The notes under the pieces: generated by a model
Seen by the model: only the letters and a program-made list of their open reading frames with translations
Databases searched by the model: none
Told to the model about the DNA's origin: nothing
Assembly (NCBI RefSeq): GCF_900107215.1
Contig: NZ_FNPD01000001.1
Location: 62,001 to 126,000, forward strand
DNA: 64,000 nt
Direction: 5' to 3'
From: Acetomicrobium thermoterrenum DSM 13490
GTDB lineage: Bacteria; Synergistota; Synergistia; Synergistales; Acetomicrobiaceae
Translations under genes and position numbers: made by a program
In this document: one piece after another, positions 35,233-58,788 of the stretch
Position numbering within the stretch: position 1 is the stretch's first letter
Layout: every line of letters begins with the position of its first letter

Positions 35233-35240
35233 GGTGAGAG

Positions 35241-35591
35241 ATGATGGAAGCAAAAGCTATATCCAAACAAATAAGGATTTCACCCTTTAAGGTGCGACAG
35301 GTGTTGTCCTTGATCAGAGGCAAGAAAGCCGGGGAAGCTCTTTTAATATTGCGCTATTGCCCCAAAAAGGCCGCGCGATATATTGAGAAGACTTTGACCA
35401 GCGCCATTGCAAACGCTGATCACAACCTGGGCATGAGCGTCGACGAACTTTATGTAGTTAAGGCCATCGCGGATGAAGGTCCTACTTTGAAAAGATGGAA
35501 ACCGGTATCCATGGGAAGGGCCCATCCTTTCAATCATCGTACCTGTCATATCACTATAGTAGTTGGCGAAAGGCAAGGAGGTATTGACTAA
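35241..35591 (+). CDS. rplV: 50S ribosomal protein L22
   Basis: 116 residues, uL22, lining the exit tunnel. The Ser-Pro-x-Lys-Val-Arg-Gln-Val motif near residue 13 and the C-terminal Arg-Ala-x-Pro-Phe-x-His-Arg-Thr-Cys-His-Ile-Thr-Ile-Val-Val segment identify it. Two adjacent ATGs (35241, 35244) are equally plausible starts. Confidence 0.97.
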
Positions 35592-35592
35592 G

Positions 35593-36267: not shown

Positions 36268-36274
36268 ATAGATT

Positions 36275-36700
36275 ATGTTGATGCCAAAAAGGGTGAAGTA
36301 TAGAAAACCTTTTCGCAAGCCTTTGCGAGGCAGGACGAAGGGTGGCGCAACTGTAGCCTTCGGAGATTACGGGTTGCAGGCTCTTGAAAACGTGTGGCTC
36401 ACTGCAAGGCAGATAGAGGCTGCCCGTATAGCCATCACGCGAAAAATGAAAAAGGGCGGAAAACTTTGGATAAGAGTCTTCCCCGACGTCGCATATACCA
36501 AAAAGCCTTTGGAGACCAGGATGGGCAAAGGTAAGGGCGCTCCTGAGTATTGGGTTGCTCCCGTTAAACGTGGCCGGGTTATCTTCGAAGTGGCCGGCGT
36601 TTCCAGAGAAGTGGTAGAAGAGGCTTTTCGCTCTGCCGCACATAAATTGCCCATCAAGGTTCGGGTTATCGAAAGGGAAGAAATGGGTGGTGAAGCATAA
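36275..36700 (+). CDS. rplP: 50S ribosomal protein L16
   Basis: 141 residues, uL16, near the A-site tRNA. The start [11 protein letters not shown] and the Arg-Met-Gly-Lys-Gly-Lys-Gly segment near 78-84 are diagnostic. GAGAGGAGG lies before it within rpsC, and its stop overlaps rpmC by one base. Confidence 0.98.
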
Positions 36701-36915
36701 TGAATCCTAAAGAGTTGCGCGACCTGACCATCGAAGAACTGAAGGAAAAACACAGGGAATATAAAAAGGAACTATACAATCTTCGCTTCCAGCATGCCAT
36801 TGGTCAGCTTTCCAATACGGCAAGAATAGCGGAAGTGAAGAGGACGATCGCCAGGATTCTTACTATCATGCGCGAGAAAGAGACCGGGCGAGATCGCTCC
36901 TCGGTGTTGAATTAA
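36700..36915 (+). CDS. rpmC: 50S ribosomal protein L29
   Basis: 71 residues, uL29, a two-helix protein at the tunnel exit. The [11 protein letters not shown] start and Leu-Tyr-Asn-Leu-Arg-Phe-Gln segment are typical. TAATG overlap with rplP suggests coupled translation. Confidence 0.97.
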
Positions 36916-36928
36916 AGGAGGGAGTTTT

Positions 36929-37222
36929 ATGGAGGAGCGCAAGGCTCAAAAAAAGGTCAGAAGAGGCATTGTCGTAAGCAATAAAATGGACAAAACGGTA
37001 GTGGTCAGAGTAGACAGGATGGCGAAGCACGCGTTATACGACAAACCTGTTCTCAAGAGCAAGAAATTCATGGCTCACGACGAGGAAAATTCTTGCTCCA
37101 TAGGAGATAAGGTTTTAATAGAGGAAACTCGACCTCTTTCGCGAAAGAAAAGATGGAAAGTCGTAAAGATCCTGGAGCGTGCTCCTCTCTTTGAATACAC
37201 TGGACCAGTCGAGGAGGAATAA
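36929..37222 (+). CDS. rpsQ: 30S ribosomal protein S17
   Basis: 97 residues, uS17, an OB-fold protein. The [14 protein letters not shown] segment at about 13-26 and the Thr-Arg-Pro-Leu-Ser-Arg/Lys-Lys-Lys-Arg segment near 67 are diagnostic. AAAGGAGGG site upstream. Confidence 0.97.
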
Positions 37223-37227
37223 AGGCC

Positions 37228-37596
37228 ATGATACAGTTACATACTATGCTTAATGTGGCCGATAATTCGGGAGCAAAAAAAATAAGGTGCATTCAGGTGA
37301 CCGGGGGTAGTTACAGGCGATATGGGACGGTTGGCGACGTAATAGTGGCTTCCGTTAAGGAAGCCATACCGAACAGCAATATCAAAAAAGGCGATGTAGT
37401 CAAAGCCGTAATTGTGCGCGTTCGCAAAGAGGTAAGGCGTCGCGACGGTTCCTACGTTCGCTTCGACGACAACGCCGCCGTTATAATCGATAACCAGGGA
37501 AACCCTCGCGGTACACGCATATTCGGCCCTGTAGCCAGGGAATTGAGGGACAAGGGTTATACGCGCATAGTATCGCTTGCTCCTGAGGTCGTATGA
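37228..37596 (+). CDS. rplN: 50S ribosomal protein L14
   Basis: 122 residues, uL14. The Met-Ile-Gln start, Val-Ala-Asp-Asn-Ser-Gly-Ala-Lys and the [10 protein letters not shown] segment are full family signatures. Confidence 0.98.
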
Positions 37597-37610
37597 GGAG
37601 GCGTGTTTGT

Positions 37611-37937
37611 ATGTCCAAGATGCGAATTAAAAAGGGAGATATGGTCCGCGTTATTTCCGGCAAAGATAAAGGAAAGGAAGGAAAGGTCCTCCAGCGCATA
37701 CCCACAAGGAACATGTTGCTGATAGAGGGAGTGAACGTCGTAACCAAGCATTCGCGTCCCTCTCAGAAAAATCCCCAGGGCGGAATCCTGCGCCAAGAGG
37801 CCCCTATCCATGCGGACAAGGTCATGCTGGTCTGTCCTGCCTGTGGTGAGGCGACGAGGGTATCTCGCGCCTTTTTGGAGGACGGACGCAAGGTTCGCCT
37901 ATGCAAGAAGTGCGGCGAAATAGTGGATAAGCTTTAG
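37611..37937 (+). CDS. rplX: 50S ribosomal protein L24 with C4 zinc-ribbon-like part
   Basis: 108 residues, uL24. The N-terminal KOW motif (Lys-Lys-Gly-Asp-x-Val-x-Val-Ile-Ser-Gly-Lys-Asp-Lys-Gly) is at residues 7-21. The C-terminal part holds Cys75, Cys78, Cys98 and Cys101, a pattern fit for one zinc. I start at ATG 37611, 9 bases after AGGAGG; an ATG at 37593 overlapping rplN would put that site inside the gene. Confidence 0.96.
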
Positions 37938-37956
37938 GTTGAGGAGGAACAGGCAA

Positions 37957-38499
37957 ATGGTTCCGCGATTACTTGAAAAATACAGAAGTGAAGTAGTTCC
38001 GCGAATGATGAAGGCCTTTAATTACAAAAACGTCATGGAGGTTCCACGAATAGAAAAGGTCGTAGTCAATATCGGCGTAAGCGAAGCGAAACAGGATATA
38101 AAATATTTGGACGCTGCTATTAATGAGCTAGCCCTCATCACAGGGCAACGGCCAGTTTTGAAAAGAGCGAAGAAGTCCGTTGCAGGCTTCAAGGTGAGAA
38201 AGGGCATGCCCGTGGCATGCACCGTTACGCTCAGAGGGGCTAAGATGTGGGAGTTTTTGGACAGGTTAATCTCTCTGGCTTTGCCCCGCATAAAGGACTT
38301 TCAAGGCGTTTCGAGAAAAGGCCTCGACGGGCGCGGAAACTATAACTTGGGGTTGAGGGAACAGCTGATATTCCCTGAAATCGAATACGACGATATTATG
38401 CGTATCAGGGGTATGAACGTAAGCATTACGACTACGGCGAAAACCGATGAGGAAGCTTACGGACTGCTAAAAGAGCTGGGTATGCCCTTTAGGCAGTAG
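37957..38499 (+). CDS. rplE: 50S ribosomal protein L5
   Basis: 180 residues, uL5, contacting 5S rRNA and P-site tRNA. Family segments seen are Asn-Val-Met-Glu-Val-Pro near 25, Leu-Ile-Thr-Gly-Gln-Arg-Pro near 65 and Gly-Leu-Asp-Gly-Arg-Gly-Asn-Tyr near 120. GAGGAGG at 37941-37947 supports ATG 37957 over a TTG at 37939. Confidence 0.98.
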
Positions 38500-38520
38500 C
38501 GATGAGGAGGTTAAAATCCG

Positions 38521-38706
38521 ATGTCTAGGAAAGCTCTTGAGATAAAGGCTCAAAGAGAACCAAAGTATAAGGTGAGAAAATACAACAGATGTCCGCTTTG
38601 CGGTCGCCCGAGGGCATTTATGAGGAAGTTTAACATGTGTAGGTGCTGCTTCAGAGATTTGGCGCGACAGGGCAAGATCCCTGGAGTCGTCAAGTCCAGC
38701 TGGTAG
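38521..38706 (+). CDS. rpsZ: 30S ribosomal protein S14, zinc-binding type Z
   Basis: 61 residues, uS14. The short form with the complete zinc ribbon Cys24, Cys27, Cys40, Cys43 is the C-plus (type Z) version. GATGAGGAGG lies upstream. Confidence 0.97.
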
Positions 38707-38733
38707 CCCTATGAAACAAAAGGAGGATCGGCG

Positions 38734-39138
38734 ATGTATGTTACAGATCCGATTGCTGATATGTTGACGCGAATCCGCAATGCGAACATAGCTTACCACG
38801 AAGTAGTGGACATCCCCATGAGCAACATGAAGCATCGTATTGCGCGAGTATTGAAGGACGAAGGTTATATAAAAAACTATAAAGTGATAAACGACCCCGG
38901 CAAGCCCTATCAAATGCTGAGGATATATTTGCACTACGGGCCAAACAAGGAAAGGGTCATACAGGGTCTTCGTCGGGTCAGCAAGCCCGGCAGGCGAATA
39001 TATGTCAACAGCAGAGACTTGCCGAAGGTCATGGGGGGCTTGGGGGTAGCGATAATATCGACTTCAAGCGGACTGATGACTGACGCGGAGGCCAGAAAAA
39101 AGGGCCTTGGCGGCGAAGTCCTTTGCTACGTGTGGTAA
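38734..39138 (+). CDS. rpsH: 30S ribosomal protein S8
   Basis: 134 residues, uS8. Begins with [14 protein letters not shown] and has the Ser-Thr-Ser-x-Gly-Leu-Met-Thr-Asp C-terminal signature. AAAGGAGGA site upstream. Confidence 0.98.
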
Positions 39139-39151
39139 GGGGGGAAAGACG

Positions 39152-39691
39152 TTGTCGAGGATTGGTCGGAAACCGATTTCCATCCCTAAAGGGGTAAATG
39201 TGACGTTGAGCGGTCGCACCGTTAGGGTAAAAGGTCCAAAGGGAGAAATGAGTTTTGATTTGTTGCCCAACATAAACGTTGAGTTGGCCGATGAGCAGAT
39301 AATGGTCATGAGGAATAGGGAAGACAAAAAAACGAAGGCCTTTCACGGCCTTGTAAGGGCCATGTTGAGCAATATCGTCACGGGCGTTACGCAGGGGTTT
39401 GAAAAGGAGCTCGAGATAGTGGGAGTGGGATACAGAGCTCAGATGCAAGGGCAGAAACTGGTCCTGAACCTCGGGTATTCAAATCCCGTTGAATATGTTC
39501 CGCCTAAAGGGATAACGATTACTACAGATAGCCCGACCAAGATAAAGATCTCGGGCATAGATAAGCAAGAGGTCGGTCAAGTCGCCGCTATAATAAGATC
39601 CTTCAGGGCCCCCGAACCTTACAAGGGCAAAGGGATCAGGTATGTTGGCGAAGTTGTCAAGCGAAAGACCGGTAAAGCTAGTGCGAAATAG
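39152..39691 (+). CDS. rplF: 50S ribosomal protein L6
   Basis: 179 residues, uL6. Begins Ser-Arg-Ile-Gly-Arg-Lys-Pro-Ile and ends with the Gly-Lys-Gly-Ile-Arg-Tyr-x-Gly-Glu segment and a basic tail. Start is TTG 39152 after AAGGGGGGAAAG; the frame upstream is open into rpsH but is not homologous. Confidence 0.97.
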   Translation: MSRIGRKPISIPKGVNVTLSGRTVRVKGPKGEMSFDLLPNINVELADEQIMVMRNREDKKTKAFHGLVRAMLSNIVTGVTQGFEKELEIVGVGYRAQMQGQKLVLNLGYSNPVEYVPPKGITITTDSPTKIKISGIDKQEVGQVAAIIRSFRAPEPYKGKGIRYVGEVVKRKTGKASAK

Positions 39692-39706
39692 TGGAGGTGG
39701 ACCATT

Positions 39707-40075
39707 TTGATTAAGCGTAAATCGCGTAACGATATGCGCCTTCTTCGGCATCGCAGGATCAGGAAAAGGCTATTGGGTACACAGGAAAAACCTAGGTTGA
39801 GCGTCTTTAGGAGCCTGAAACACATTTATGTCCAAGTCATTGATGATGAGCGTGGGCATACCCTGGTTTCCGCGTCCACCTTAGACAAGGAACTTAGGCC
39901 TTTTCAGGCAAGCTCCGGCTCCATAGAGGCGGCCAAGGCAGTGGGGCAGCTTGTGGCGAGACGAGCGCTGGAGCGTGGCATTGCTGAAGTCGTTTTTGAC
40001 CGTGGCGGACACGCCTATCACGGGAAGGTCAAGGCGCTTGCCGATGCCGCTCGCGAAGCCGGCTTGAAGTTATAA
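39707..40075 (+). CDS. rplR: 50S ribosomal protein L18
   Basis: 122 residues, uL18, binds 5S rRNA. The Pro-Arg-Leu-Ser-Val-Phe-Arg-Ser segment near residue 27 and the C-terminal Phe-Asp-Arg-Gly-Gly-x-x-Tyr-His-Gly-Lys-Val-Lys-Ala-Leu-Ala signature are present. TTG start after GGAGGTGG. Confidence 0.97.
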
Positions 40076-40090
40076 AGGGGGAGTCTTTGC

Positions 40091-40591
40091 ATGGTCAGGA
40101 TAACGATACCAAAAGGCGTGGAGCTAACCGAGAGGGTTATCGCCATAAACAGGGTCAGCAAAGTCGTCAAAGGCGGCAAGAGATTTAAATTCAGCGTTCT
40201 TGTCGTAGTTGGAGACGGGGAACGATACATAGGAGTAGGCATGGGTAAGGCGAGGGAGATACCCGAAGCGGTTCGTAAGGGCATTGAAAGGGCAAAGAAG
40301 AACCTTGTAGAGGTAAAGAAAGTAGGAAATACCATTCCCCACCCGATAGTTGCGAACTTTGGTGCGGCCCAGGTGCTGCTCAGGCCTGCCGCTCCTGGAA
40401 CGGGAGTTATTGCGGGGGCAGTTGTGCGCGCCATTATGGAGTTGGGCGGCGTAAAGGACGTGTTGACGAAGGTCATAGGCAGAACGTCTAATCCTATCAA
40501 CGTCGCTTACGCTACTGTTGAGGCCGTGAAGGCTCTGAGAAGCCCCGACGAGATCATGAAATTACGCGGGAAAGACCAACAACAGGCTTAG
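40091..40591 (+). CDS. rpsE: 30S ribosomal protein S5
   Basis: 166 residues, uS5, at the mRNA entry site. Segments Val-Lys-Gly-Gly-Lys-Arg-Phe, Gly-Asp-Gly-x-x-Tyr-Ile-Gly-Val-Gly-Met-Gly-Lys-Ala and [10 protein letters not shown] are diagnostic. AAGGGGGAG site upstream. Confidence 0.98.
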
Positions 40592-40608
40592 CGGGGAGGA
40601 ATGAGGTT

Positions 40609-40791
40609 ATGTCCAAAATTAGAGTTACTTGGAAAAAAAGCACCATAGGACGCCCGGAAAGACAGAGAAAATCTATCCGAGCTTTGGGCCTGAAGAAGTT
40701 GAACCATAGCGTAACCCATGACGATACGCCTCAAATCCGAGGAATGATAAGAGCCGTCGAGCATCTCATAGATTGGGAAATCGTCGAATAG
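40609..40791 (+). CDS. rpmD: 50S ribosomal protein L30
   Basis: 60 residues, uL30. The Ser-x-Ile-Gly-Arg-Pro-x-Arg-Gln-Arg-x-Ser/Ile core and the Leu-Gly-Leu-x-Lys-Leu-Asn segment fit the family; it lies in the fixed rpsE-rpmD-rplO order. GGGGAGGAATGAGG precedes the ATG. Confidence 0.96.
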   Translation: MSKIRVTWKKSTIGRPERQRKSIRALGLKKLNHSVTHDDTPQIRGMIRAVEHLIDWEIVE

Positions 40792-40806
40792 CTGGGAGGG
40801 AATAGT

Positions 40807-41253
40807 ATGCGAATTCATGACTTACGCGCCCCTATGGGGGCCCGAAAAAAGCCCAAGAGGGTTGGTCGGGGCAAGGGAAGCGGCCACGGCGGTACGGCTA
40901 CGCGAGGGCATAAGGGGCAAAAAGCCCGTGCCGGTGGAAATATATCGCCCAGGTTCGAAGGCGGGCAGATGCCTCTGGTGAGAAGAATTCCGAAGAGAGG
41001 GTTTAATAATGCGAGATTCGCAAGAAAATATCAGTACGTCAATATTGTGACCCTCGACGAGAAGTTCGGAGAAAATGCAACAGTCACTCCTGAGCAGATG
41101 TACGAGGCTGGCATCATAGAAGATCTCCAAACGCCTGTTAAGATATTAGCGAAAGGGGACATCACGAAACCGCTTACGGTAAAGGCGCACAAATTCAGTG
41201 CCAACGCGAAAAGCAAGATCGAATCGGCCGGCGGCAAGGCAGAGGTGATTTAA
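40807..41253 (+). CDS. rplO: 50S ribosomal protein L15
   Basis: 148 residues, uL15. Starts with His-Asp-Leu and has the long basic glycine-rich arm (Arg-Val-Gly-Arg-Gly-x-Gly-Ser-Gly, Gly-His-Lys-Gly-Gln-Lys-Ala-Arg) and the Gly-Gly-Gln-Met-Pro-Leu segment. CTGGGAGGG site upstream; secY starts at once after its stop. Confidence 0.98.
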
Positions 41254-42546
41254 GTGTTTAGCGCCTTGCGTGACATGTTTCGCCTTCCCGACCTTAAAAG
41301 CAGGATCTTGTTCGTCCTCGGGGTCCTGCTGGTGTTTCGCTTGGGGGCGCACATCCCAACTCCCGGAGTGGATGCGAAGGCAATGGCAAGTCTCTTTGAA
41401 CAGGGCGGGGTATTGAGTCTCTTCGATCTCTTTGCGGGAGGTGCTTTGCGGCGATTCAGCATATTTGCTCTTGGCGTAACGCCCTACATCAATGCCAGTA
41501 TCGTCATGCAACTTCTGGCCGTTGTCGTGCCCGCCATAGAAAAGATGCAAAAAGAGGGCGAAGAGGGAAGGCGCAAGATCGTTCAGTACACGAGGGTGTC
41601 TACGATCCTTTTCGCAGGCATCCAGGCGGTAGGAATGGTTTTGTGGCTCAGGAGCATGGACATCATTTATGTAGGTGGCATCTCTATAGTGGTGGCCATA
41701 GTAACTCTTATTGCTGGATCAATAGCCGTTATGTGGATGGGTGAAATGATATCTGACCACGGCATAGGCAACGGAATATCGCTGCTCATATTCGCCGGAA
41801 TAGTTGCTCGTATACCGGAGGCAATAATGCGAACCTTTACATTGCTTCGTACCGGCGAGATGAATTTCTTAACTCTGATAATTGCCATTGCAATAATGAT
41901 CGTAGTAATTGCCGGATGTATACTCCTTCAGGAGGGCCAAAGGCGATTACCGGTTCAGTATGCGAAAAGAGTTGTCGGAACCAGGGTGTACGGAGGACAG
42001 TCGACCTTCATTCCTTTGAGGGTTAACAGCGCAGGGGTAATACCTATAATTTTTGCATCCTCTGTATTACTCTTTCCCACTACCGTGGCCAGGTTTTTTT
42101 CGGCTGGATTTGCCCAGACGATTGCAGGGATCTTTTCGCCGAGTAGTCCAATATATATGATCCTTTACGTATTGCTGATCATATTTTTCACCTACTTTTA
42201 TACGGCTGTCGTCTTTAATCCTGTCGATGTGGCCAACAATTTGAAGAAATACGGGGGCTTTATACCCGGAATAAGGCCGGGACGTCCTACGGCAGACTAC
42301 ATCGAAAGGGTGTTGTCACGAGTTACGTTGGGAGGGGCGGTATTTTTGGCGGGCATAGCTCTGCTTCCCTCGCTTTTGACGCAAATGCTGGGCATAACGA
42401 CTTTCTACTTTGGAGGCACTGCAGTTTTGATCGTCGTCGGCGTTGCCCTTGAGACGGTACAGCAGATTGAAGCCCAGCTGTTGATGCGCCATTATGAAGG
42501 GATTATGAAAAGAAGGAACAAAGCTGGCGGAATACTAAGACTATAG
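41254..42546 (+). CDS. secY: Preprotein translocase channel subunit SecY
   Basis: 430 residues with ten membrane spans; the protein-conducting channel. Segments seen include Arg-Leu-Gly-Ala-His-Ile-Pro-Thr-Pro-Gly-Val near the start, the spans around Gly-Ile-Gly-Asn-Gly-Ile-Ser, and the cytosolic loop Lys-Tyr-Gly-Gly-Phe-Ile-Pro-Gly-Ile-Arg-Pro-Gly. GTG start directly after the rplO stop, as part of the spc operon. Confidence 0.98.
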   Translation: MFSALRDMFRLPDLKSRILFVLGVLLVFRLGAHIPTPGVDAKAMASLFEQGGVLSLFDLFAGGALRRFSIFALGVTPYINASIVMQLLAVVVPAIEKMQKEGEEGRRKIVQYTRVSTILFAGIQAVGMVLWLRSMDIIYVGGISIVVAIVTLIAGSIAVMWMGEMISDHGIGNGISLLIFAGIVARIPEAIMRTFTLLRTGEMNFLTLIIAIAIMIVVIAGCILLQEGQRRLPVQYAKRVVGTRVYGGQSTFIPLRVNSAGVIPIIFASSVLLFPTTVARFFSAGFAQTIAGIFSPSSPIYMILYVLLIIFFTYFYTAVVFNPVDVANNLKKYGGFIPGIRPGRPTADYIERVLSRVTLGGAVFLAGIALLPSLLTQMLGITTFYFGGTAVLIVVGVALETVQQIEAQLLMRHYEGIMKRRNKAGGILRL

Positions 42547-42579
42547 AACAGCTTTGGGACTAGTTAGGAGGAAGAGAAG

Positions 42580-43239
42580 TTGCGCATGATATTTCTAGGG
42601 CCACCGGGAGCAGGAAAGGGAACGCAGGCGGTAAAATTGGCATCCAAATATGGAATAGCCCATATCTCTACCGGTGATATGTTGCGTTATCATGTTAAAA
42701 ACGGCACCGATCTTGGCGAGAAGGCGAAGGCCTATATGGACTCGGGCCGGTTGGTGCCCGATGATTTGATTATAGAGATGGTCAAGGAGAGATTGGAAGA
42801 AGAGGACGCAAAGAGGGGCTTTATACTGGACGGATTTCCCAGGACCGTGAATCAGGCGGAAGCTCTGGAAGTTCTTCTAAAGTCCAAGGACATTACCCTC
42901 GATGCCGTTGTTTTATTCGACGTTGACGAAGAAACCTTGGTGCGACGCCTCTCAGGAAGGCGCATCTGCCCAAACTGTAATGCGATTTACAACGTTCATA
43001 ACAGCGATTATCCTGAGGATGGTCGTTGTAAAAGGTGCGGTAATGGACTTATACAGCGCGATGACGACCGACCTGAAGTGGTAAGGCGGCGCCTCAAGGT
43101 TTACGAGGAAGAGACCGCCCCCTTGCTTGATTATTACAGAAATAAGGGCAGCCTGATATCTGTCGATGCCTCTTCCGAAAGCGACGCCGTATTGTACGCC
43201 ATAGTGAGTTTGTACGGAGGCAAAGATGATTCGAATTAA
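42580..43239 (+). CDS. adk: Adenylate kinase (zinc-lid type)
   Basis: 219 residues; interconverts ATP + AMP and 2 ADP. P-loop Gly-Pro-Pro-Gly-Ala-Gly-Lys-Gly-Thr is at about residues 7-15, and the long lid has a C4 zinc site Cys130, Cys133, Cys150, Cys153. Start is TTG 42580 with AGGAGGAA 7 bases upstream; an ATG two codons later is possible. Overlaps map by 14 bases. Confidence 0.97.
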   Translation: MRMIFLGPPGAGKGTQAVKLASKYGIAHISTGDMLRYHVKNGTDLGEKAKAYMDSGRLVPDDLIIEMVKERLEEEDAKRGFILDGFPRTVNQAEALEVLLKSKDITLDAVVLFDVDEETLVRRLSGRRICPNCNAIYNVHNSDYPEDGRCKRCGNGLIQRDDDRPEVVRRRLKVYEEETAPLLDYYRNKGSLISVDASSESDAVLYAIVSLYGGKDDSN

Positions 43240-43999
43240 GAAAGATTGGGAAATAGAAAAGATGAGAAGGGCGGGACTTGTGGTCGCAGACGTCTTAAAA
43301 CTTATGAGGGATATGGTCAAACCCGGGGTGGACACGAAAAGCCTCGATGCAGAGGCCGAAAATATGATATTAAAGAGCGGAGGAATTCCGGCGTTCAAGG
43401 GGTATTCCTTTCCTGGGGCACCCTTTCCCTTTCCCGGTAGTATATGCGTCTCCGTCAACGATGAGATAGTTCACGGCATTCCCGATAATAAGAGAGTTTT
43501 GGTCGAAGGCGATATTGTGAGCATCGACGTGGGAGTCTGCATCGACGGATATTATGGGGATGCTGCTTGCACCTTTCCCGTCGGACTCATAAGCGATAGC
43601 AGATCGAGGTTGCTTGAAGTTACGAAAAGGGCCCTCTATTTGGCAGTCGATGCGGCTAAAAACGGCAATACCGTCGGAGATATAGGGCATACCGTGGAAC
43701 AGTATGTCATTTCGCAGGGTTACGGTCTGGTCCGCGACTATGCGGGCCACGGGATAGGGAAGCGCCTCCATGAGGCTCCCCAGGTCCCTAACTTCGGAAG
43801 ACGGGGGGACGGCATAACCCTTAAAAAGGGGTTTACCCTCGCCATCGAACCAATGGTCATCGCCAGTAAAAACGAAGATGTGGCGGTATTGGAAAACGGA
43901 TGGACGGTTGTAACGGCAGATCACTCGGATGCAGCTCACTTTGAACATACGGTGCTCATTTTCGACGAGAGAGGAATCATACTCACGCCTTGGGAGTGA
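43226..43999 (+). CDS. map: Methionine aminopeptidase, type I
   Basis: 257 residues, pita-bread-fold metalloprotease that removes the initiator methionine. The metal ligands are recognisable in Val-Asn-Asp-Glu-Ile-Val-His-Gly-Ile-Pro, Ile-Asp-Val-Gly (first Asp), Gly-Asp-Ala-Ala-Cys-Thr-Phe (second Asp), the Gly-His-Gly-Ile-Gly His, and the two Glu near residues 210 and 240. Usual position behind adk. Confidence 0.97.
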   Translation: MIRIKKDWEIEKMRRAGLVVADVLKLMRDMVKPGVDTKSLDAEAENMILKSGGIPAFKGYSFPGAPFPFPGSICVSVNDEIVHGIPDNKRVLVEGDIVSIDVGVCIDGYYGDAACTFPVGLISDSRSRLLEVTKRALYLAVDAAKNGNTVGDIGHTVEQYVISQGYGLVRDYAGHGIGKRLHEAPQVPNFGRRGDGITLKKGFTLAIEPMVIASKNEDVAVLENGWTVVTADHSDAAHFEHTVLIFDERGIILTPWE

Positions 44000-44307
44000 C
44001 GATATTGGATTTAGATGACTTTCAAACAGGAAGGGTCGTCATATCCCGCAAGGGAAAGGATAAGGGCACTTTTTATGCAGTGATTGGCATGGATCGGTTG
44101 AAAAACAGGGTATACGTGGCAGACGGGTGGCGGCACTCAGTCTCTCGTCCCAAGCCCAAAAACCCGAAGCATCTTCAGATGACAAATTGGTCTTTGCCAA
44201 GATTGGAGGAACGTTTGAGGGACAGCTCGAAAAATAACGATGAGTGGCTACGTCAGCAACTGCTAAACCTGATTCGAGACAAAGGGGCTCAAATTAAGAG
44301 GGGGTAG
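43996..44307 (+). CDS. KOW-domain RNA-binding protein (L14e/L27e-like)
   Basis: About 103 residues. The N-terminal part, with Asp-Phe-Gln-Thr-Gly-Arg-Val-Val and then Lys-Gly-Lys-Asp-Lys-Gly, is KOW-like, and the rest is basic. In many Firmicutes a small KOW protein lies between map and infA, which matches here. The start is uncertain: GTG 43996 overlaps the map stop in a GTGA, while TTG 43990 and TTG 44005 are also possible. Its specific RNA target is unknown to me. Confidence 0.75.
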
Positions 44308-44317
44308 GCCAGCGCGC

Positions 44318-44536
44318 ATGGCGAGGGAAGATGTAATAGAGTTACGGGGTACGGTGCTTGAACCGTTGCCCAACGCGATGTTCAAAGTGCAGCTTGAAAA
44401 CGGTCATATTTTGTTAGCCCATGTCTCGGGCAAGATGCGCATGCATTTCATTCGCATATTGCCCGGGGATAAGGTCTTGGTTCAAGTCTCACCTTACGAC
44501 TTGACAAGAGGACGAATTGTATATAGATATAAATAG
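44318..44536 (+). CDS. infA: Translation initiation factor IF-1
   Basis: 72 residues, single OB-fold S1-like protein. Segments [12 protein letters not shown] and [14 protein letters not shown] are diagnostic. Spacing to rpmJ is 22 bases. Confidence 0.98.
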
Positions 44537-44558
44537 CTTTAAAGGGGGAAGTAAAAAG

Positions 44559-44684
44559 ATGAAAGTCAGACCTTCCGTTAAACCTATTTGCGAACATTGC
44601 CAGGTCATTCGGCGTCACGGCAAGGTATGGATAATTTGCAAAAGAGATCCTAAACATAAACAAAGACAGGGAGCAAGGAGGTAG
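44559..44684 (+). CDS. rpmJ: 50S ribosomal protein L36, zinc-binding
   Basis: 41 residues, bL36, found by reading the gap between infA and rpsM. It begins [11 protein letters not shown] and has Cys11, Cys14, Cys27 and His33 as zinc ligands, i.e. the C-plus form. AAAGGGGGAAG lies upstream, and its 3' end contains the ribosome-binding site of rpsM. It is slightly longer at the C-terminus than the usual 37-38 residues. Confidence 0.96.
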
Positions 44685-44690
44685 TCGGGC

Positions 44691-45074
44691 ATGGCTCGAA
44701 TCGCAGGTATTGATCTGCCCAGGGACAAAAGAGTCGAGATAGCGTTGACTTATATCTACGGCATAGGTCTTCCTTCGGCGAAGAAGATATTGGCATCTAC
44801 GGGGATCAGCCCCGATACGCGGGTTAAGGACCTCACCGAAGACGAGATCAACAAGCTCCAAAGAGAGATTGAAAACAACCATAAGGTAGAAGGCGATTTG
44901 AGGCGCGAGGTCAACGCGAACATCAAGCGCCTGATAGACATAGGCTGTTATCGGGGCTTAAGGCACAGGCTCGGCCTTCCCGTAAGGGGACAGAGGACGC
45001 GCACCAACGCAAGGACGCGCAAGGGTCCAAAGAGGACGATAGCCGGCAAGAAGAAAGCCACAATGAAAAAGTAA
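44691..45074 (+). CDS. rpsM: 30S ribosomal protein S13
   Basis: 127 residues, uS13. Starts Ala-Arg-Ile-Ala-Gly-Ile-Asp-Leu-Pro and has Gly-Leu-Arg-His-Arg-x-Gly-Leu-Pro-Val-Arg-Gly-Gln-Arg-Thr and the basic C-terminal tail. Part of the alpha operon. Confidence 0.98.
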
Positions 45075-45105
45075 CGGAAGCCTATAAATTAAGGAGGGAA
45101 ATTTA

Positions 45106-45498
45106 GTGGCCAAGAGCACCAAAAGACGGACCAAAAGAAAAGAAAAAAAGAATATAAATTATGCCGTTGCCCACATTCACTCTACATTTAATAATACGAT
45201 CATAAGCATAACAGACAAGCAGGGCGGCGTTGTCGGTTGGGCATCGGGGGGGACAGTAGGTTTCAAGGGTACCCGTAAATCGACGCCCTATGCTGCTCAG
45301 ATGGCAGCACAGGTTGTGGCCAAACAGGCACAGGATCACGGCGTCACTGAAATAGACGTAGTCGTCAAGGGCCCCGGACCGGGAAGGGAGTCGGCCATTA
45401 GAAGTTTGCAGGCCGCAGGACTGCAGATCAACATGATAAAAGACGCCACGCCGATTCCTCATAACGGATGTCGTCCTCCAAAAAGACGACGTGTATAA
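45106..45498 (+). CDS. rpsK: 30S ribosomal protein S11
   Basis: 130 residues, uS11. Signatures: His-Ile-x-Ser-Thr-Phe-Asn-Asn-Thr, Gly-Pro-Gly-Pro-Gly-Arg-Glu and the C-terminal [11 protein letters not shown]. GTG start after AAGGAGGG. Confidence 0.98.
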
Positions 45499-45537
45499 GC
45501 CCAACAGGGGAACATTGAAGGAGGGAAAGATCGCGAT

Positions 45538-46164
45538 ATGAGCAGATATACCGGACCTTCCTGCAGGCTGTGTCGCAGGGCAGGAACAAAGTTATTTCTA
45601 AAGGGAGACAGATGCTATTCTGAGAAGTGTGCCATAGCGAGGAGGAACTCCTTACCGGGTCAGCACTCGCAGAGGCGAGCGAAATTCAGCGAATATGGCT
45701 TGCGGTTGCACGAGAAGCAGAAGCTCAGAAGGTTTTACGGAATGACGGAACGGCAGTTTGAGAGGTTCTTCGAAAAGGCCAGCAGAATGGCCGGGCAGAA
45801 GGGGCACAATTTTCTGCAGTTGTTGGAAAGACGCGTTGACAGCGTGGTCTATCGCTTGGGCATTGCCTCGAGCAGAGCTCAAGCCAGACAGCTCGTGACC
45901 CACGGTCACATAACCGTCAACGGCAAAAAACTTGACATACCAAGCGCTTTGGTGAAAGTCGGCGATGTCATAGCCGTTGCTCCCAACAGCAGGGACATTC
46001 CTACTATAAGGGAAAACTTGGAAGTCGCTTCGGCCCGGGCCATACCGGAGTGGCTTGAACTCAATGCCGAGCGGATGGAGGGTAGAGTAGTATCTCTTCC
46101 GACGAGGGAGCAGATCGACGTTCCCGTCAACGAACAGCTCATCGTCGAATACTACGCTCGATAA
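45538..46164 (+). CDS. rpsD: 30S ribosomal protein S4, zinc-binding form
   Basis: 208 residues, uS4, primary 16S binder. Zinc site Cys9, Cys12, Cys26, Cys31 marks the C-plus form. The S4 domain follows (Leu-Asp-Ser/[10 protein letters not shown] at about 96-110). In many bacteria S4 autoregulates the alpha operon; I saw no clear pseudoknot. Confidence 0.98.
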
Positions 46165-46184
46165 TTATTAAGGAGAGGATCAGT

Positions 46185-47219
46185 TTGGAACGTGTTGTGC
46201 CGGATATCCATATAGAAGAAAGCAGTTCGGGATATGGACGGATTAGAATAGAACCCCTGGAGAGGGGGTACGGCGTAACGCTTGGGAATGCCATTAGGCG
46301 AGTCCTGCTGTCGTCCATCCCGGGAGCTGCCGTCTCCGCCATCAGGATCGATGGCGTATTGCATGAGTTCAGTACAGTGCCCGGCGTAATGGAGGACGTA
46401 TTGGAAATAATATTGAACATAAAAAAGCTAGCCGTCGTGTCCCACAGCGATGACGTTCGCATGTTGAGGCTGGAGGCAGAGGGGCCCAAGGTCGTGACGG
46501 TCGCCGATATAATCCCCGACAGCGAGGTGGAGTTTTCCAACCCCGAGGCTTACATATGTACTTTGGAAGAAGGTCATAAATTGGAAATGGACCTTTACGT
46601 CGAGCGGGGTGTAGGCTATCTGACAATGGACAGGCCAAGACCTAACTATTTGCCCATAGATGTTTTACTAGTCGATGCTGTATTTTCTCCCGTCTTGCGC
46701 GTGAACTACAACGTCGGGGCTGCAAGGGTTGGCCAGCGAACCGACTACGAGAGCCTGCTCATCGAATTGTGGACAAACGAGACGGTCGAGCCCGCTAAAG
46801 CCTTTCTTGAGGCTGTCAAGATATTGAACCAATATTTTGGCCATATAGCTTCCCTGTTGCTAAAAGAGCCCGTCTCTCCCGTAGCGGCGGAGGTTCCTGA
46901 GGCTGTCGTTGAGGCTGTAGCGGAGGAAGACCCCATTCTCTCCAGGCCCATTCGGGATCTGGAACTATCCATACGAAGCGAAAACTGCCTGCTTCGCGCA
47001 GGAGTGCGCACCATAGGGGATTTGGTCCAATACACGAGGGACGATCTTTTGAAGATACGTAATCTTGGAAAGATTTCCCTGAAGGAGATAGAGGAAAAGT
47101 TGGATATCTTCGGCCTGTCTTTGAGCGCTCCCAAAGCAGGTTCGAAGGCCGGAACAGATTCCCAGGAAAATGACGCCGAAGGTAACTTGGATGATGAAAA
47201 CGAAGGCAAGGAGGAATAG
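46185..47219 (+). CDS. rpoA: DNA-directed RNA polymerase subunit alpha
   Basis: 344 residues. The N-terminal dimerisation domain has Gly-Tyr-Gly-Val-Thr-Leu-Gly-Asn-Ala-x-Arg-Arg-Val-Leu-Leu-Ser-Ser near residue 28. The C-terminal DNA-binding domain (about 245-310) has Arg-Ser-x-Asn-Cys-Leu and Asn-Leu-Gly-x-x-Ser-Leu-Lys-Glu-Ile. A 30-residue acidic tail follows. TTG start after AAGGAGAGG. Confidence 0.97.
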   Translation: MERVVPDIHIEESSSGYGRIRIEPLERGYGVTLGNAIRRVLLSSIPGAAVSAIRIDGVLHEFSTVPGVMEDVLEIILNIKKLAVVSHSDDVRMLRLEAEGPKVVTVADIIPDSEVEFSNPEAYICTLEEGHKLEMDLYVERGVGYLTMDRPRPNYLPIDVLLVDAVFSPVLRVNYNVGAARVGQRTDYESLLIELWTNETVEPAKAFLEAVKILNQYFGHIASLLLKEPVSPVAAEVPEAVVEAVAEEDPILSRPIRDLELSIRSENCLLRAGVRTIGDLVQYTRDDLLKIRNLGKISLKEIEEKLDIFGLSLSAPKAGSKAGTDSQENDAEGNLDDENEGKEE

Positions 47220-47222
47220 AGG

Positions 47223-47576
47223 ATGAGGCATAGAATGCGCTCTAGGACGCTTGGGCGATATGGAGCACACAGAAGTGCGATGCTCATAAACATGGCTGCA
47301 AGCCTTATAATTCACGAGAGCATAGAGACCACGGTTCCGCGGGCGAAAGAGCTTCGCAGGTATGTTGAAAAGCTCGTTACTCGCGCCAAGGGCGGGACTT
47401 TGCACGACAGAAGGATAGTTATATCGAGATTGCGCAACAAGGAAGCGACGATAAAGCTCTTCAATGAGCTTGCGCCCCGTTATGCCAATCGCCCGGGAGG
47501 CTATACTCGAATAGTGAAACTTGGATACCGCAAGGGAGACGCTGCCCCAACGGCCATAATTGAATTTGTTCAGTAA
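47223..47576 (+). CDS. rplQ: 50S ribosomal protein L17
   Basis: 117 residues, bL17. Starts Arg-His-Arg and contains Leu-Gly-Arg-x-x-x-His-Arg-x-Ala-Met and Thr-Thr-x-x-Arg-Ala-Lys-Glu-Leu-Arg. It closes the alpha operon; no terminator is seen in the 6 bases before the transporter genes. Confidence 0.98.
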   Translation: MRHRMRSRTLGRYGAHRSAMLINMAASLIIHESIETTVPRAKELRRYVEKLVTRAKGGTLHDRRIVISRLRNKEATIKLFNELAPRYANRPGGYTRIVKLGYRKGDAAPTAIIEFVQ

Positions 47577-47582
47577 TCCGAT

Positions 47583-48419
47583 ATGACTGCAAGGACAATT
47601 TTTTCTTTAAGGGATGTGACTTTTTGTTATCCCGGCTCGGACAAACCCGCCATATCGGGCATAACGATGGACGTAGAGGAAGGTCGGTGGGTTTCGGTCG
47701 TAGGAGACAACGGATCGGGCAAGTCTACCCTGGCAAAGCAATTGAACGCCCTGCTGGTGCCAACGCGGGGCGTTTGTTTTGTCATGGGCAAGGACACCAA
47801 AGACCCATCCCTACAATGGGAAATCAGAAAAGACGTCAGCATGGTCTTTCAAAACCCAGAAAATCAGATAGTCGCCTCTGTGGTCGAAGAAGAAGTCGCC
47901 TTCGGACCCGAAAATTTGGGACTTACGAGCGTGGAAATTGAGGAGCGAGTGAGGTGGGCCTTGAAGGTTACAGGCCTTTTTGAGTTTGCACATAGGCCAA
48001 CCTATGCCCTTTCCGGCGGGCAAAAGCAGCGGCTTGCTCTTGCAGGAGCGCTTGCCATGAAGCCCAGATGTATTGTCCTCGATGAGGCGACCAGCATGTT
48101 GGACCCAGAAGGAAGAAAGGATTTGGTCGCAGTTTTAACCAGATTGCACCACGAAGGGATGACGGTGGTCATGATTACCCACAGATTGGAGGAGATACTG
48201 TTTTCCGATCTCACGGCCGTGCTCTCTCGGGGTAAATTGGCCTTCTACGGAGAGACGAAAGACCTTTTGGATAGCACGACCTTTGCCCGATTGGGTATCA
48301 AAGAGCCCCCCTTGTTTAAGTTGTGGCGCAACTTGAAGTCCAGGGGGTTGCTCGAAGAATCTACCTATCCCACTGTTCGGAATATGGTCGAAGAGCTGGT
48401 GGAAAGGCTATGTCTATAA
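47583..48419 (+). CDS. ecfA1: ECF transporter ATPase A1
   Basis: 278-residue ABC ATPase of energy-coupling-factor transporters, which import vitamins and metals using a shared module plus separate S proteins. Walker A Gly-Asp-Asn-Gly-Ser-Gly-Lys-Ser is near residues 41-48, Q-loop Gln-Asn-Pro-Glu-Asn-Gln near 98, Leu-Ser-Gly-Gly-Gln signature near 143 and Walker B Val-Leu-Asp-Glu near 168. The ribosome-binding site is weak. Order after rplQ matches Firmicutes. Confidence 0.93.
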   Translation: MTARTIFSLRDVTFCYPGSDKPAISGITMDVEEGRWVSVVGDNGSGKSTLAKQLNALLVPTRGVCFVMGKDTKDPSLQWEIRKDVSMVFQNPENQIVASVVEEEVAFGPENLGLTSVEIEERVRWALKVTGLFEFAHRPTYALSGGQKQRLALAGALAMKPRCIVLDEATSMLDPEGRKDLVAVLTRLHHEGMTVVMITHRLEEILFSDLTAVLSRGKLAFYGETKDLLDSTTFARLGIKEPPLFKLWRNLKSRGLLEESTYPTVRNMVEELVERLCL

Positions 48420-49261
48420 GGGTTTGCAACGTAAGTTATGTATATCATAGGGATACTCCCCTGGAGACGGTTTCGCTTCGGGATGTCTCGTTCGATGTCG
48501 ATCCTGGAGAATGGATAGCTGTTGTGGGGCATACGGGGAGTGGAAAGACCACTCTGGCCCAAATGCTCAACGGGTTGCTTTTCCCCACGTCGGGAGAAGT
48601 CGTCGTCGACGGATTAAAGCTCTATCCAAAGGCTCCTCATCTAAAGTCCCTTAGACGAAAGGTAGGTCTCGTATTTCAATACCCTGAGCATCAACTGTTT
48701 GCCGAAACCGTATTGGACGAGATGATGTATGCTCCCAAAAACTTCGACATCCCCGAAGATGAAGCGAGGAGAAATATCGAAAGGACTCTCGAGCTTTTCG
48801 ATCTCGACGAAAATGTGCTTTCAAAAAATCCCTTTGAACTGTCGGGAGGACAGAGAAGAAAGGTCGCTCTTGCTTCGATTATGGTGGTAGAGCCTGACTA
48901 TCTCGTTTTGGACGAACCGACGGCAGGGTTGGATTGGAAGGGGAGGGAAGCGCTGTTTTCAATACTTGAGGACTTCAGGAGTAAAGGAATCGCGATCGTA
49001 CAGATAACACATGATATCGAGATGGTTTTGGGTCACTGCGACAAGCTGTTGGTGCTCGAGAATGGGAGAAAAAAGTTGTGGGGAAGGCCCGCAGAAGTGA
49101 TAGAAGATCTGGCCGAAAAGCCGGTAAAGGGGCTTGTCCTTCCCGAGGTCCTGGAGTTTGCCCATTCACTGAGAAATGCTGGACTGAACGTGCCTCTTAC
49201 GTGGGATGAGAAGTCCTTGCTTGAAGCCATAGAAAGGGAGGTTTCTTCGTGCATTTCCTAG
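48410..49261 (+). CDS. ecfA2: ECF transporter ATPase A2
   Basis: About 283 residues. Walker A Gly-His-Thr-Gly-Ser-Gly-Lys-Thr near 44, Q-loop Gln-Tyr-Pro-Glu-His-Gln near 89, Leu-Ser-Gly-Gly-Gln near 145 and Walker B Val-Leu-Asp-Glu-Pro near 170. Family members start near Ser-Ile-x-Val-x-Asn-Val-Ser-Tyr, so I use ATG 48410, overlapping ecfA1 by 10 bases, although the frame is open to 48323. Confidence 0.93.
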   Translation: MSIRVCNVSYVYHRDTPLETVSLRDVSFDVDPGEWIAVVGHTGSGKTTLAQMLNGLLFPTSGEVVVDGLKLYPKAPHLKSLRRKVGLVFQYPEHQLFAETVLDEMMYAPKNFDIPEDEARRNIERTLELFDLDENVLSKNPFELSGGQRRKVALASIMVVEPDYLVLDEPTAGLDWKGREALFSILEDFRSKGIAIVQITHDIEMVLGHCDKLLVLENGRKKLWGRPAEVIEDLAEKPVKGLVLPEVLEFAHSLRNAGLNVPLTWDEKSLLEAIEREVSSCIS

Positions 49262-50061
49262 AGCATCTTTCCTTGGGACAGTACGTCCCCGCTAAATCTT
49301 TCATCCATTCGTTGGACCCAAGGAGCAAAGTTCTGGCCGTCATGTTTTTGATCACCTCTGTTTTTCTGGCGAACACTACTCTGTGGCCTTACGTCATATG
49401 GTTTGTCTTGATCGTTATTATCAGCGCCTTGAGTAATATATCTTTTAAGACGGTCGTGACGTCGACGAGGCCCGTGCTAATATTGATCGTATTTACCTTG
49501 GCGATAAACCTGTTTTTCGCCGACGGCAGGGAGTTGTTCAGGATAGCCTTCATTTCAATTACCGAGGAAGGTCTCTTGACGGGAATTAAAATGGGCCTAA
49601 GGCTTTTTTATCTAGTATTGTTTGCCAATATAACGATGATGACTACAAGCCCGATAGAGCTTTCCGACGGCATCGAGTCTTTGCTTTCGCCTTTCAAGCG
49701 TTACGGGCTTCCAGCCCATGAATTTGCCATGATGATGACGATAGCCCTGCGGTTCATACCGACCCTCTTGGACGAAACGGACAGGATAATGAAGGCCCAG
49801 CTTGCCCGTGGAGCCGATCTGGACAGCGGCGGAATTATAAAGAGGTTTAAGGCTTTGATCCCTGTGCTGGTGCCTCTTTTTGTGATTGTATTCCAAAGGG
49901 CCGAAGAACTTGCAGTAGCAATGGAGGCTAGATGCTACAGGGGCGACTATGGTAGAAGCAGGATGAGACCGCTTGTGTGGGGTGCCTGTGACAGCCTTTA
50001 TTTGGGTGCCATTCTTTTTATCTCAGTAAGCGGGGTGATTTTGGATAGGTGGATACTATAG
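49249..50061 (+). CDS. ecfT: ECF transporter transmembrane coupler T
   Basis: 270 residues with about five to six membrane spans. The coupling-helix motif appears as Ala-Arg-Gly-Ala (near residue 186) and Ala-Met-Glu-Ala-Arg-Cys-Tyr-Arg-Gly (near 224), both typical of EcfT. GTG start overlaps ecfA2 by 13 bases. No substrate-binding S gene is in the window, so this is a group II-like shared module. Confidence 0.92.
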   Translation: MHFLEHLSLGQYVPAKSFIHSLDPRSKVLAVMFLITSVFLANTTLWPYVIWFVLIVIISALSNISFKTVVTSTRPVLILIVFTLAINLFFADGRELFRIAFISITEEGLLTGIKMGLRLFYLVLFANITMMTTSPIELSDGIESLLSPFKRYGLPAHEFAMMMTIALRFIPTLLDETDRIMKAQLARGADLDSGGIIKRFKALIPVLVPLFVIVFQRAEELAVAMEARCYRGDYGRSRMRPLVWGACDSLYLGAILFISVSGVILDRWIL

Positions 50062-50876: not shown

Positions 50877-51920
50877 GTGTTGGGTTTAGATATAGGTATA
50901 GATTTAGGAACGGCGACAATATTGATCTATGTAAAGGGAAAGGGCGTGATTATGAGGGAGCCGTCGGTGGTGGCAATAGATCAGAACAACAACAAGATCT
51001 TGGCCGTTGGCTCGGAGGCCAAGAGAATGCTCGGTAGGACTCCGGGGAACGTCGTAGCCGTTCGACCGCTTCAAAGCGGGGTCATAGCCAACTATACCAT
51101 GACAGAGGCCATGATAAGGCACTTCCTGAAAAAAACCATGTCGGGATTGAACAAATTTTTGCGCCATCGCGTGATGATAGGCGTTCCCTCGGGAGCCACG
51201 GACGTGGAAAGAAGGGCCGTTTTGGAGGCTGCCCTCGAAGTGGGCGCCAAGGAGGCCTACCTCATAGAGGAACCAATGGCTGCAGCTATTGGTGCGGGGC
51301 TGTCAGTGGAGGAACCGCGGGGCAACATGGTGGTGGACGTAGGAGGCGGGACTTCGGATATAGCCGTAATATCCCTGGGGGGGCTTGTAGTGGCCGAGTC
51401 GCTGCGCATGGGCGGAGATGCCATGGATGAGGCGATAATAAGGTACGTCAGAAAGAAATACAATTTGGAGATAGGGTCGCAAACGGCCGAGGCATTGAAG
51501 ATATCGATCGGCAACTGTTGCAACAATATCCCTGAGGAAGAAAAGAAAACGATGGCGGTCAAGGGTAGGGACGTAGTCCTCGGTCTTCCAAGGCAGGTAG
51601 AGTTGACTACAAAGGATGTGAAGGAGGCAATAGAGGACATAGTTTCGTCGATAATCAGGAGCATAAGGCGCGTATTGGAGCTAACGCCGGCGGAACTTTC
51701 TGCCGATATTATTGACAGGGGAATAGTGCTTACGGGGGGAGGAGCCCTCCTTAAGGGGCTTTCCGAGCTCATACACGACCAGACGGGCATAAAGACCTAC
51801 GTAGCCGACTCGCCCCTGGAATGCGTAGCCCTGGGAACGGGAAAGGCTTTGGACGAACTGAACGCCCTCAAAGAATCAGGCTCGGTGTATTCGGCAATAA
51901 AGAAAAGTTCAGGGCGTTAG
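50877..51920 (+). CDS. mbl: Actin-like rod-shape protein MreB/Mbl
   Basis: 347-residue bacterial actin. Phosphate loops Asp-Leu-Gly-Thr-Ala near residue 9 and Val-Asp-Val-Gly-Gly-Gly-Thr-Ser-Asp near 156, the Glu-Glu-Pro-Met-Ala-Ala-Ala-Ile-Gly segment near 131 and the Leu-Thr-Gly-Gly-Gly-Ala-Leu segment near 284. mreD and mrdA at the left edge imply another mreB upstream of the window, so this is probably a paralogue. In Bacillus the mbl gene is followed by flgF/flgG-type genes (flhO, flhP), and here a flgF remnant follows. GTG start after AAAGGAGG. Confidence 0.9.
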   Translation: MLGLDIGIDLGTATILIYVKGKGVIMREPSVVAIDQNNNKILAVGSEAKRMLGRTPGNVVAVRPLQSGVIANYTMTEAMIRHFLKKTMSGLNKFLRHRVMIGVPSGATDVERRAVLEAALEVGAKEAYLIEEPMAAAIGAGLSVEEPRGNMVVDVGGGTSDIAVISLGGLVVAESLRMGGDAMDEAIIRYVRKKYNLEIGSQTAEALKISIGNCCNNIPEEEKKTMAVKGRDVVLGLPRQVELTTKDVKEAIEDIVSSIIRSIRRVLELTPAELSADIIDRGIVLTGGGALLKGLSELIHDQTGIKTYVADSPLECVALGTGKALDELNALKESGSVYSAIKKSSGR

Positions 51921-51963: not shown

Positions 51964-52287
51964 ATGTTTCGCGGACTTTATGGCGCCTCGTCGGCAATGC
52001 TTATTCAGGAGAAGGTCATAGACGTCGCCTCCCTTGAACAGCTCGAGGTCAGGCCAGATTCAGTGGCCAGAGTTGTCGTAAACGAGCGAACGGGAACGGT
52101 CGTGATGGGTGGAGACGTAAAGATTAGCGCCGTCGTGGTATCTCACGGAAATCTGACGGTCGCTGTGGCCGAGGCACCCCAGGTGGTACAGTCCGAATCC
52201 TTTGCGGGAGGACAGACGGCTGTAGTCCCCAGGACGGAAGTTGCCATCGAAGAACAGCAGGGCAGGATGAACGATGAAGGAGTATAA
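51964..52287 (+). pseudogene. Chimeric flagellar remnant: FlgF start joined in frame to FlgI C-terminal region
   Basis: An intact ORF of 107 codons with AAGAAGGTGG upstream of ATG 51964. Residues 1-21 (Met-Phe-Arg-Gly-Leu-Tyr-Gly-Ala-Ser-Ser-Ala-Met and onwards to Val-Ile-Asp-Val) match the start of FlgF/FlgG rod proteins. From about residue 22 it matches the C-terminal region of the P-ring protein FlgI: Val-Val-Val-Asn-Glu-Arg-Thr-Gly-Thr-Val-Val-Met-Gly-Gly, then His-Gly-Asn-Leu-Thr-Val, then Gly-Gly-Gln-Thr-Ala-Val-Val-Pro. The last 45 or so FlgI residues are missing. I infer a deletion that removed flgF body, flgG, flgA, flgH and most of flgI. It may still be translated; a functional role is unproven. 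Confidence 0.75.
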
Positions 52288-52702
52288 AAATAAACGGTGG
52301 TGGAAGGACGGTTTATATTTTTCCTGCCTTGGATGCGGTCGGTGTTGCGGGGGAGAGCCGGGTTACGTCTGGCTTGATACAAATGAGATTTTTGCTATCG
52401 CCAACTTCCTCGAAGTGGACGTTGCCGATACCCTTCGTTCTTTTGCCCGAAGGGTAGCAGGCCGTATCAGCCTCAGGGAGCTTGAAAACGGAGACTGCGT
52501 GTTCCTGGCCGATGGAAGGTGTCGGATATACCCCGTGAGGCCGCTTCAGTGTCGGACCTATCCCTTTTGGCCTTCGGTGCTTCAAAGCCCACGCTCGTGG
52601 CGCCTCGAAGGACAAAGATGCCCTGGCATCGGGCAGGGAAGCTTTTACCCTCAAGAGACCATTGAGCGTCTTCTTTCCCATATTTCCGCTATGGGACTTT
52701 GA
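52274..52702 (+). CDS. YkgJ-type cysteine cluster protein
   Basis: 142 residues. The N-terminal Cys-Leu-Gly-Cys-Gly-Arg-Cys-Cys (about residues 18-25) plus a later Cys pair (Cys-Arg-Ile-Tyr-Pro-x-Arg-Pro-x-x-Cys-Arg-x-Tyr-Pro-Phe-Trp-Pro near 90-110) is the CxxCxxCC family signature, thought to bind zinc or iron-sulfur. The role is unknown. It overlaps the flagellar remnant by 14 bases, so its expression may depend on that frame. Confidence 0.88.
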   Translation: MKEYKNKRWWKDGLYFSCLGCGRCCGGEPGYVWLDTNEIFAIANFLEVDVADTLRSFARRVAGRISLRELENGDCVFLADGRCRIYPVRPLQCRTYPFWPSVLQSPRSWRLEGQRCPGIGQGSFYPQETIERLLSHISAMGL

Positions 52703-52819
52703 CGATAAGTTAACCGTGCCTAATTTACTTGTATATATTTGCCTTCCGAGCTAGAATGTAAAATGTAAACTGATGCAACATGTGAGTTAAAGATCATTAT
52801 AAAACGGGAGGCGTTAGGC

Positions 52820-58216: not shown

Positions 58217-58534
58217 TTTGAATCAAGATTTCCCGCAAATGTGCCAATAAAATTAACAGAAAGGAAATAAACCCCGGGGTCGGATCTTTAATCTTGAATT
58301 TTAGTATAACAGCTTAACGATGCTGCCAAAAACGCTTAATTGTCTCTTTTGTATGTAAATGCCCAAGGCTTAATTTAGAGTAAAGATCAAGTTACCTTCG
58401 ATGTTTTTTGCGATATCATCAGCAAATGATGCACCATATGCCAGCTTTTAGTATTTTCATGCCTTGATTGCTGTATTAAAATCATTCTTCAACCCAAATG
58501 CAATAAGTCAGTATAAAAAATTTTAAAATTCCCG
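58217..58534 (+). other. Non-coding AT-rich gap
   Basis: About 320 bases without a convincing gene on either strand. It holds a small CCCCGGGG palindrome near 58273 and a loose 8-base inverted repeat TCAAGATT/AATCTTGA about 60 bases apart (near 58224 and 58293), too weak to call a terminator. Only the tRNA-Ala promoter at its right end is clear. Confidence 0.6.
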
Positions 58535-58564
58535 TTGACAAAAGCCCGATCCATTCCCTATAAT
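58535..58564 (+). promoter_or_regulatory. Consensus promoter for tRNA-Ala
   Basis: Perfect -35 TTGACA (58535-58540) and perfect -10 TATAAT (58559-58564) with an 18-base spacer. Transcription would start about 6 bases before the tRNA 5' end. Confidence 0.93.
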
Positions 58565-58576
58565 GGGCACTGTCCT

Positions 58577-58651
<75 letters not shown>

Positions 58652-58659
58652 GTGAAAAT

Positions 58660-58693
58660 AAAACCTCCTTTTGCATATGCAAAAGGAGGTTTT
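58660..58693 (+). terminator. Intrinsic terminator of tRNA-Ala
   Basis: A perfect 34-bp inverted repeat centred at 58676/58677, with arms AAAACCTCCTTTTGCAT and its complement, running into TTTTTTG. The right arm contains AAAGGAGG, a ribosome-binding-like sequence, which is paired in the hairpin and has no start codon near it. Confidence 0.92.
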
Positions 58694-58788
58694 TTGTTTA
58701 TTCTCATGCGAAAAGTCTTTTTATATCCGCTCCTTTGTATTAAACTTAAAACCGATTCGTGAACAATAAACAAAGGGGGGTGTTTTGC

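Follow-up and report, generated by a model that had tools for sequence, protein, structure and literature searches.

An in-frame flgF–flgI fusion in Acetomicrobium, most probably the scar of a decayed flagellar operon

The chimeric open reading frame and its neighbours

The window, a stretch of 64,000 nucleotides, covers positions 62001–126000 of contig C1 of an Acetomicrobium (Synergistota) genome with a size of 1.97 Mb and a completeness of 99.95%. It carries a real open reading frame (ORF) of 107 codons, which starts with ATG, is open throughout, and is preceded by an in-frame GTG four codons 5' of this start. As reference for the breakpoints we used A. hydrogeniformans ATCC BAA-1850/OS1 (G081, locus L032; hereafter OS1), which was marked as the same species by genome search. 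The relevant features are given below; all but the last lie in the window.

50877..51920, + strand: mbl/mreB-type actin homologue, intact, directly upstream of the scar (PF06723, E=5.9e-139)
51964..52287, + strand: chimeric ORF of 107 codons, FlgF(1-23)::FlgI(247-328)::short out-of-frame tail (Pfam and protein alignment)
51964..52032, + strand: flgF 5' end with start and ribosome-binding site kept (98% DNA identity to L032; protein 22/23)
52024..52032, + strand: junction 1, 9-bp direct repeat GTCGCCTCC, of which flgF and flgI of the intact operon each have a single copy; 3,796 bp gone
52024..52266, + strand: internal flgI segment (93.8% DNA identity to L032 10001-10243; PF02119 212-298)
52258..52266, + strand: junction 2, direct repeat CAGGGCA (CAGGGCAGG with the UBA3949 allele), common to flgI and flgJ; 457 bp gone
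52274..52702, + strand: CxxCxxCC (YkgJ-type) gene, intact (PF03692, E=2.8e-11)
58267..58705, + strand: second flagellar scar, 18.3 kb missing compared with OS1
Contig C14 (G000), ~3654-3725 (L144): third scar, 33.6 kb missing compared with OS1

Residues 1–23 of the deduced product were identical to FlgF of A. hydrogeniformans at 22 of 23 positions, while residues 21–102 revealed 93% identity to positions 247–328 of its FlgI (374 residues). The only Pfam family matched was FlgI (PF02119), with residues 16–102 covering no more than positions 212–298 of its 343 (E = 1.1e-26), and solved P-ring structures (PDB 7bgl and others) matched the same stretch. The FlgF part, at 23 residues too short to score in Pfam, is identified by orthology at the DNA level, which amounts to 98% across the joined flank. 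As a rod protein the product does not qualify, because the domains Flg_bb_rod, D1, and Flg_bbr_C are absent, only the first 23 residues of FlgF are present, and no Pfam rod family was matched. In regard to the P-ring protein FlgI (PF02119; PDB 7bgl), 82 residues are orthologous to positions 247–328, but the chimera represents only about a fifth of that protein, lacks the signal peptide, the N-terminal half and the C-terminus, and has two invariant prolines replaced. Its FlgI part is an internal piece of the second half, and the final residues MNDEGV stem from the boundary of flgJ and the next gene, read out of frame. The original prediction, made from the sequence, of a FlgF-like start continued by the FlgI C-terminal region was thus right on both parents, but the FlgI portion is internal and the junction lies at residues 20–23, within the 9-bp repeat common to both genes.

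The mbl gene, which had been predicted directly upstream and was found there intact, also adjoins flgF in A. hydrogeniformans (L032 5058–6101), in G004, in G001, and in other Synergistota. On the other side, the start of the CxxCxxCC gene (dN/dS low, 0.16) overlaps the end of the chimera by 14 bp. A promoter/terminator scan around the chimera revealed no terminator on the + strand, and the lone promoter-like site, at 52710 downstream, was at chance level. Across Synergistota, a CxxCxxCC (YkgJ-type) gene is found after the flgI region, and in two lineages it was retained after loss of the flagellum.

Deletions in the operon and elsewhere in the genome

In OS1 the locus harbors an intact run, mbl-flgF-flgG-flgA-flgH-flgI-flgJ-CxxCxxCC, whose flanks share about 98% DNA identity with the window; its "flgJ" is an ORF of 111 residues with no Pfam match, named from its position. 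The order mbl-flgF-flgG-flgI-CxxCxxCC recurs in G004, in G001, and in more distant Synergistota. As in unitary pseudogenes, close relatives (L032 and L034, and also G004 and G001) have the intact orthologs at this locus, and a functional copy elsewhere in the genome is absent.

Alignment of the window to L032 at the DNA level resulted in three blocks, one extending to 52032 (98%, L032 6213), one from 52024 to 52266 (94%, L032 10001–10243), and one from 52258 onward (97%, from L032 10700), adjacent blocks overlapping by nine bases at both joins. The second deletion removed the 3' end of flgI and almost all of flgJ; its repeat measures 7 bp with the flgJ-position ORF of OS1 and 9 bp with that of UBA3949. 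While a single deletion between the outer parts had been proposed, and the intervening genes are indeed gone, two deletions (3,796 and 457 bp) took place and flgJ was lost as well. By chance, about 3.5 shared 9-mers would be expected between flgF and flgI; seven are present, of which one was used. Deletions between short direct repeats are of the replication slippage type, and each junction of the window likewise has a single repeat copy left, 9 bp (or 7 to 9 bp) in length. Judging from these junctions, the likely mechanism is RecA-independent slippage between repeats of 9 bp. The large deletions described below and the junctions in a second genome (G003) differ from this type in that they show little or no repeat.

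Profiles for flagellin, FlhA, Flg_bb_rod, FliG_C, and the CheA dimerization domain resulted in no match in the whole 99.95%-complete genome, while the same profiles matched in G081, G004, and G002. Strain OS1 has been reported as motile by polar flagella, with a complete flagellar gene set (PMC6025917). The two larger scars account for the missing genes: the 18.3 kb lost at 58267 comprise, in OS1, hook-associated genes, flagellin genes, and genes of flagellin-type glycosylation (flgN, flgK, flaG, two members of the flagellin family, and a sugar pathway of the pseudaminic/nonulosonic-acid type), and the 33.6 kb lost on contig C14 comprise the flgB/C-type rod, fliG, flhA, and cheA region (basal body, export, chemotaxis). 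The search for other flagellar genes across the genome, called for by the original prediction, and the intact operon of the same-species strain bear out its reading of the ORF as the scar of a lost mbl-flgF-G-A-H-I run. The further conclusion that FlgI points to a diderm ancestor is trivial, the organism itself being a diderm of the Synergistota.

What is left at the 18.3-kb scar is part of an Rpn/Transposase_31 gene together with a tRNA-Ala (GGC, 58577–58651). The Rpn/YhgA-like remnant (58270–58497) has a 5' unit that recurs at many Acetomicrobium sites, and one of its edges coincides with the deletion breakpoint.

A second lineage and the ancestry of the deletions

Among 81 relatives, flgI remnants unaccompanied by a full copy were identified in the window genome and in G003 only, and the check for relatives with the short gene next to complete flgF and flgI, proposed as a test of the predicted deletion, did not refute it. 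G003 is another Acetomicrobium, a sister species with a genome 87% complete, in which flagellin, FlhA, FliG, and CheA were not found either. At both large scars (18.3 and 33.6 kb) its breakpoints agree with those of the window genome to the base. The further erosion inside the 58267–58705 remnant differs between the two genomes.

G003 also harbors an in-frame fusion, in this case of roughly residues 1–185 of FlgF with roughly residues 175–221 of FlgI (ORF of 245 residues, L112 5774–6511 on C15); behind it flgI has suffered another deletion, and the flgJ-position ORF is intact. A common origin of the two flgF-flgI deletions was considered and rejected: the two genomes have retained non-overlapping stretches of FlgI, so that neither fusion derives from the other and the common ancestor, or a common donor, must still have had the small operon. 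Assuming descent, we infer that the large deletions came first and that the small flgF-I operon decayed later, separately in the two lineages.

The flanks complicate this picture. Informative sites beside flgF group the window genome with the flagellated G081 and G003 with the flagellated G002 (UBA3949), with 47:1 sites upstream and 61:11 downstream; the large scars are nonetheless common to the window genome and G003, against this grouping, and the SNP splits beside these scars are mixed. Three explanations offer themselves: recombination carried the deletion alleles from one lineage to another, the alleles for flagella were acquired anew, or the same deletions arose more than once. Tentatively, the 33.6-kb and 18.3-kb deletion alleles may have spread within Acetomicrobium through homologous recombination from lineage to lineage, the flgF-I operon then decaying locally in each recipient. 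Although this is the less probable course, such a horizontal spread of loss alleles would explain why breakpoints are shared with G003 in spite of an flgF-region ancestry shared with flagellated A. hydrogeniformans, that of G003 being shared with flagellated UBA3949, and it would disturb the order of events given above. Elsewhere in the window, a stretch at ~35000–49500 is 99.8–100% identical to OS1 amid a background of about 97%, evidently owing to recent homologous recombination.

Interpretation and comparison with known cases

Altogether, we consider the ORF a gene-loss scar, with a probability of about 0.93: two short-repeat deletions in mbl-flgFGAHIJ-CxxCxxCC fused the flgF start with part of flgI without shifting the frame, and the lineage had probably already lost its flagellum when this happened. 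According to this scenario, the 33.6-kb (fli/flh/che) and 18.3-kb (flgN-flgK-flagellins-glycosylation) deletions would have abolished motility first, and the flgFGAHIJ run, by then useless, would have decayed independently in the window strain and in G003.

The original prediction had also left room for a domesticated small protein, that is, a fusion translated and selected for a new role. The ORF has retained its start, its ribosome-binding site, and an open frame, its neighbours on both sides are intact, a terminator-like site is absent from its strand, and the independent fusion in G003 is likewise in frame. Each in-frame join has, however, a one-in-three chance, and different pieces were kept in the two lineages. 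The substitutions P77S and P79S affect positions at which all 18 intact FlgI proteins have proline, and FlgI of OS1 shows no such departures; these two, out of four amino-acid changes specific to the lineage in the FlgI part, support a presumably relaxed constraint. The lineage-specific changes there (about 4 nonsynonymous and 4–5 synonymous) give only a small nonsynonymous excess, and the dN/dS of 0.18–0.30 for the remnant, calculated on few changes, does not by itself exclude residual constraint. A random substitution leads to a stop in 3.5% of cases, and the frame would be expected to stay open after about nine changes with 72% probability, so that openness, expected by chance over so few substitutions, is weak evidence for function. 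The predicted structure was poor (mean pLDDT 55, pTM 0.30; FlgF part below 50). A rod protein requires the flagellar export apparatus, which is lost, as is the signal peptide of FlgI. Taken together, with the invariant prolines replaced and a confident fold absent, domestication is unsupported and highly improbable.

An assembly or binning artefact, in which the operon collapsed at short repeats, appears even less probable: the 9-bp repeats at the junctions could arouse suspicion of a misassembly, but nine bases are too short to mislead ordinary assembly, two breakpoints recur exactly in a separate genome (G003), and the rest of the flagellar regulon is also missing, from three loci of a 99.95%-complete genome. 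Another explanation, compatible with a gene-loss scar and adding a reason for the open frame, is that the ORF is kept open because the CxxCxxCC gene behind it depends for its expression on translation through the scar, whatever the product's sequence. The end of the chimera runs 14 bp over the next start, the strong AGGAGG of the CxxCxxCC gene (as in UBA3949) is AGGATG in the window, so that coupling may matter more, and in G003 it is flgJ that has stayed open as far as the next gene; the CxxCxxCC gene has a low dN/dS and is located after flgI/flgJ across Synergistota. Since an open frame over so few substitutions is expected anyway, we regard this as possible but rather doubtful. If the scar ORF is translated, only a mechanical role would be plausible, carrying ribosomes from mbl into the overlapping CxxCxxCC gene, and an open in-frame scar would avoid polarity.

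The gene-loss scar found here is a well-dated but ordinary one that yielded no new protein. Flagellum loss is documented here with unusual completeness for a group of close relatives, since an intact genome of the same species is at hand for comparison at every breakpoint and a second lineage (G003) supplies the relative order of losses. The case also illustrates that what is annotated as an in-frame "chimeric gene" can be no more than the scar of deletions. If deletion alleles are truly shared against local ancestry, it would clearly exemplify how recombination can spread the loss of genes.

While our literature search returned no report of flagellar loss in Acetomicrobium, deletions of flagellar genes within a species are already known, e.g., from Xanthomonas. 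In X. fuscans 4834-R, the flagellar cluster was hit by a 33-kb deletion, and about 5% of the Xanthomonas strains tested were affected (PMC3826837). As in our case, flagella were lost there by large within-species deletions of several patterns, with motile and non-motile strains coexisting (PMC3826837). While the deletion in these plant pathogens was tied to mobile elements (PMC3826837), three loci were hit here in an anaerobic thermophile, and, unlike in Xanthomonas, the small operon of Acetomicrobium decayed separately in two lineages, each time leaving an in-frame fusion.
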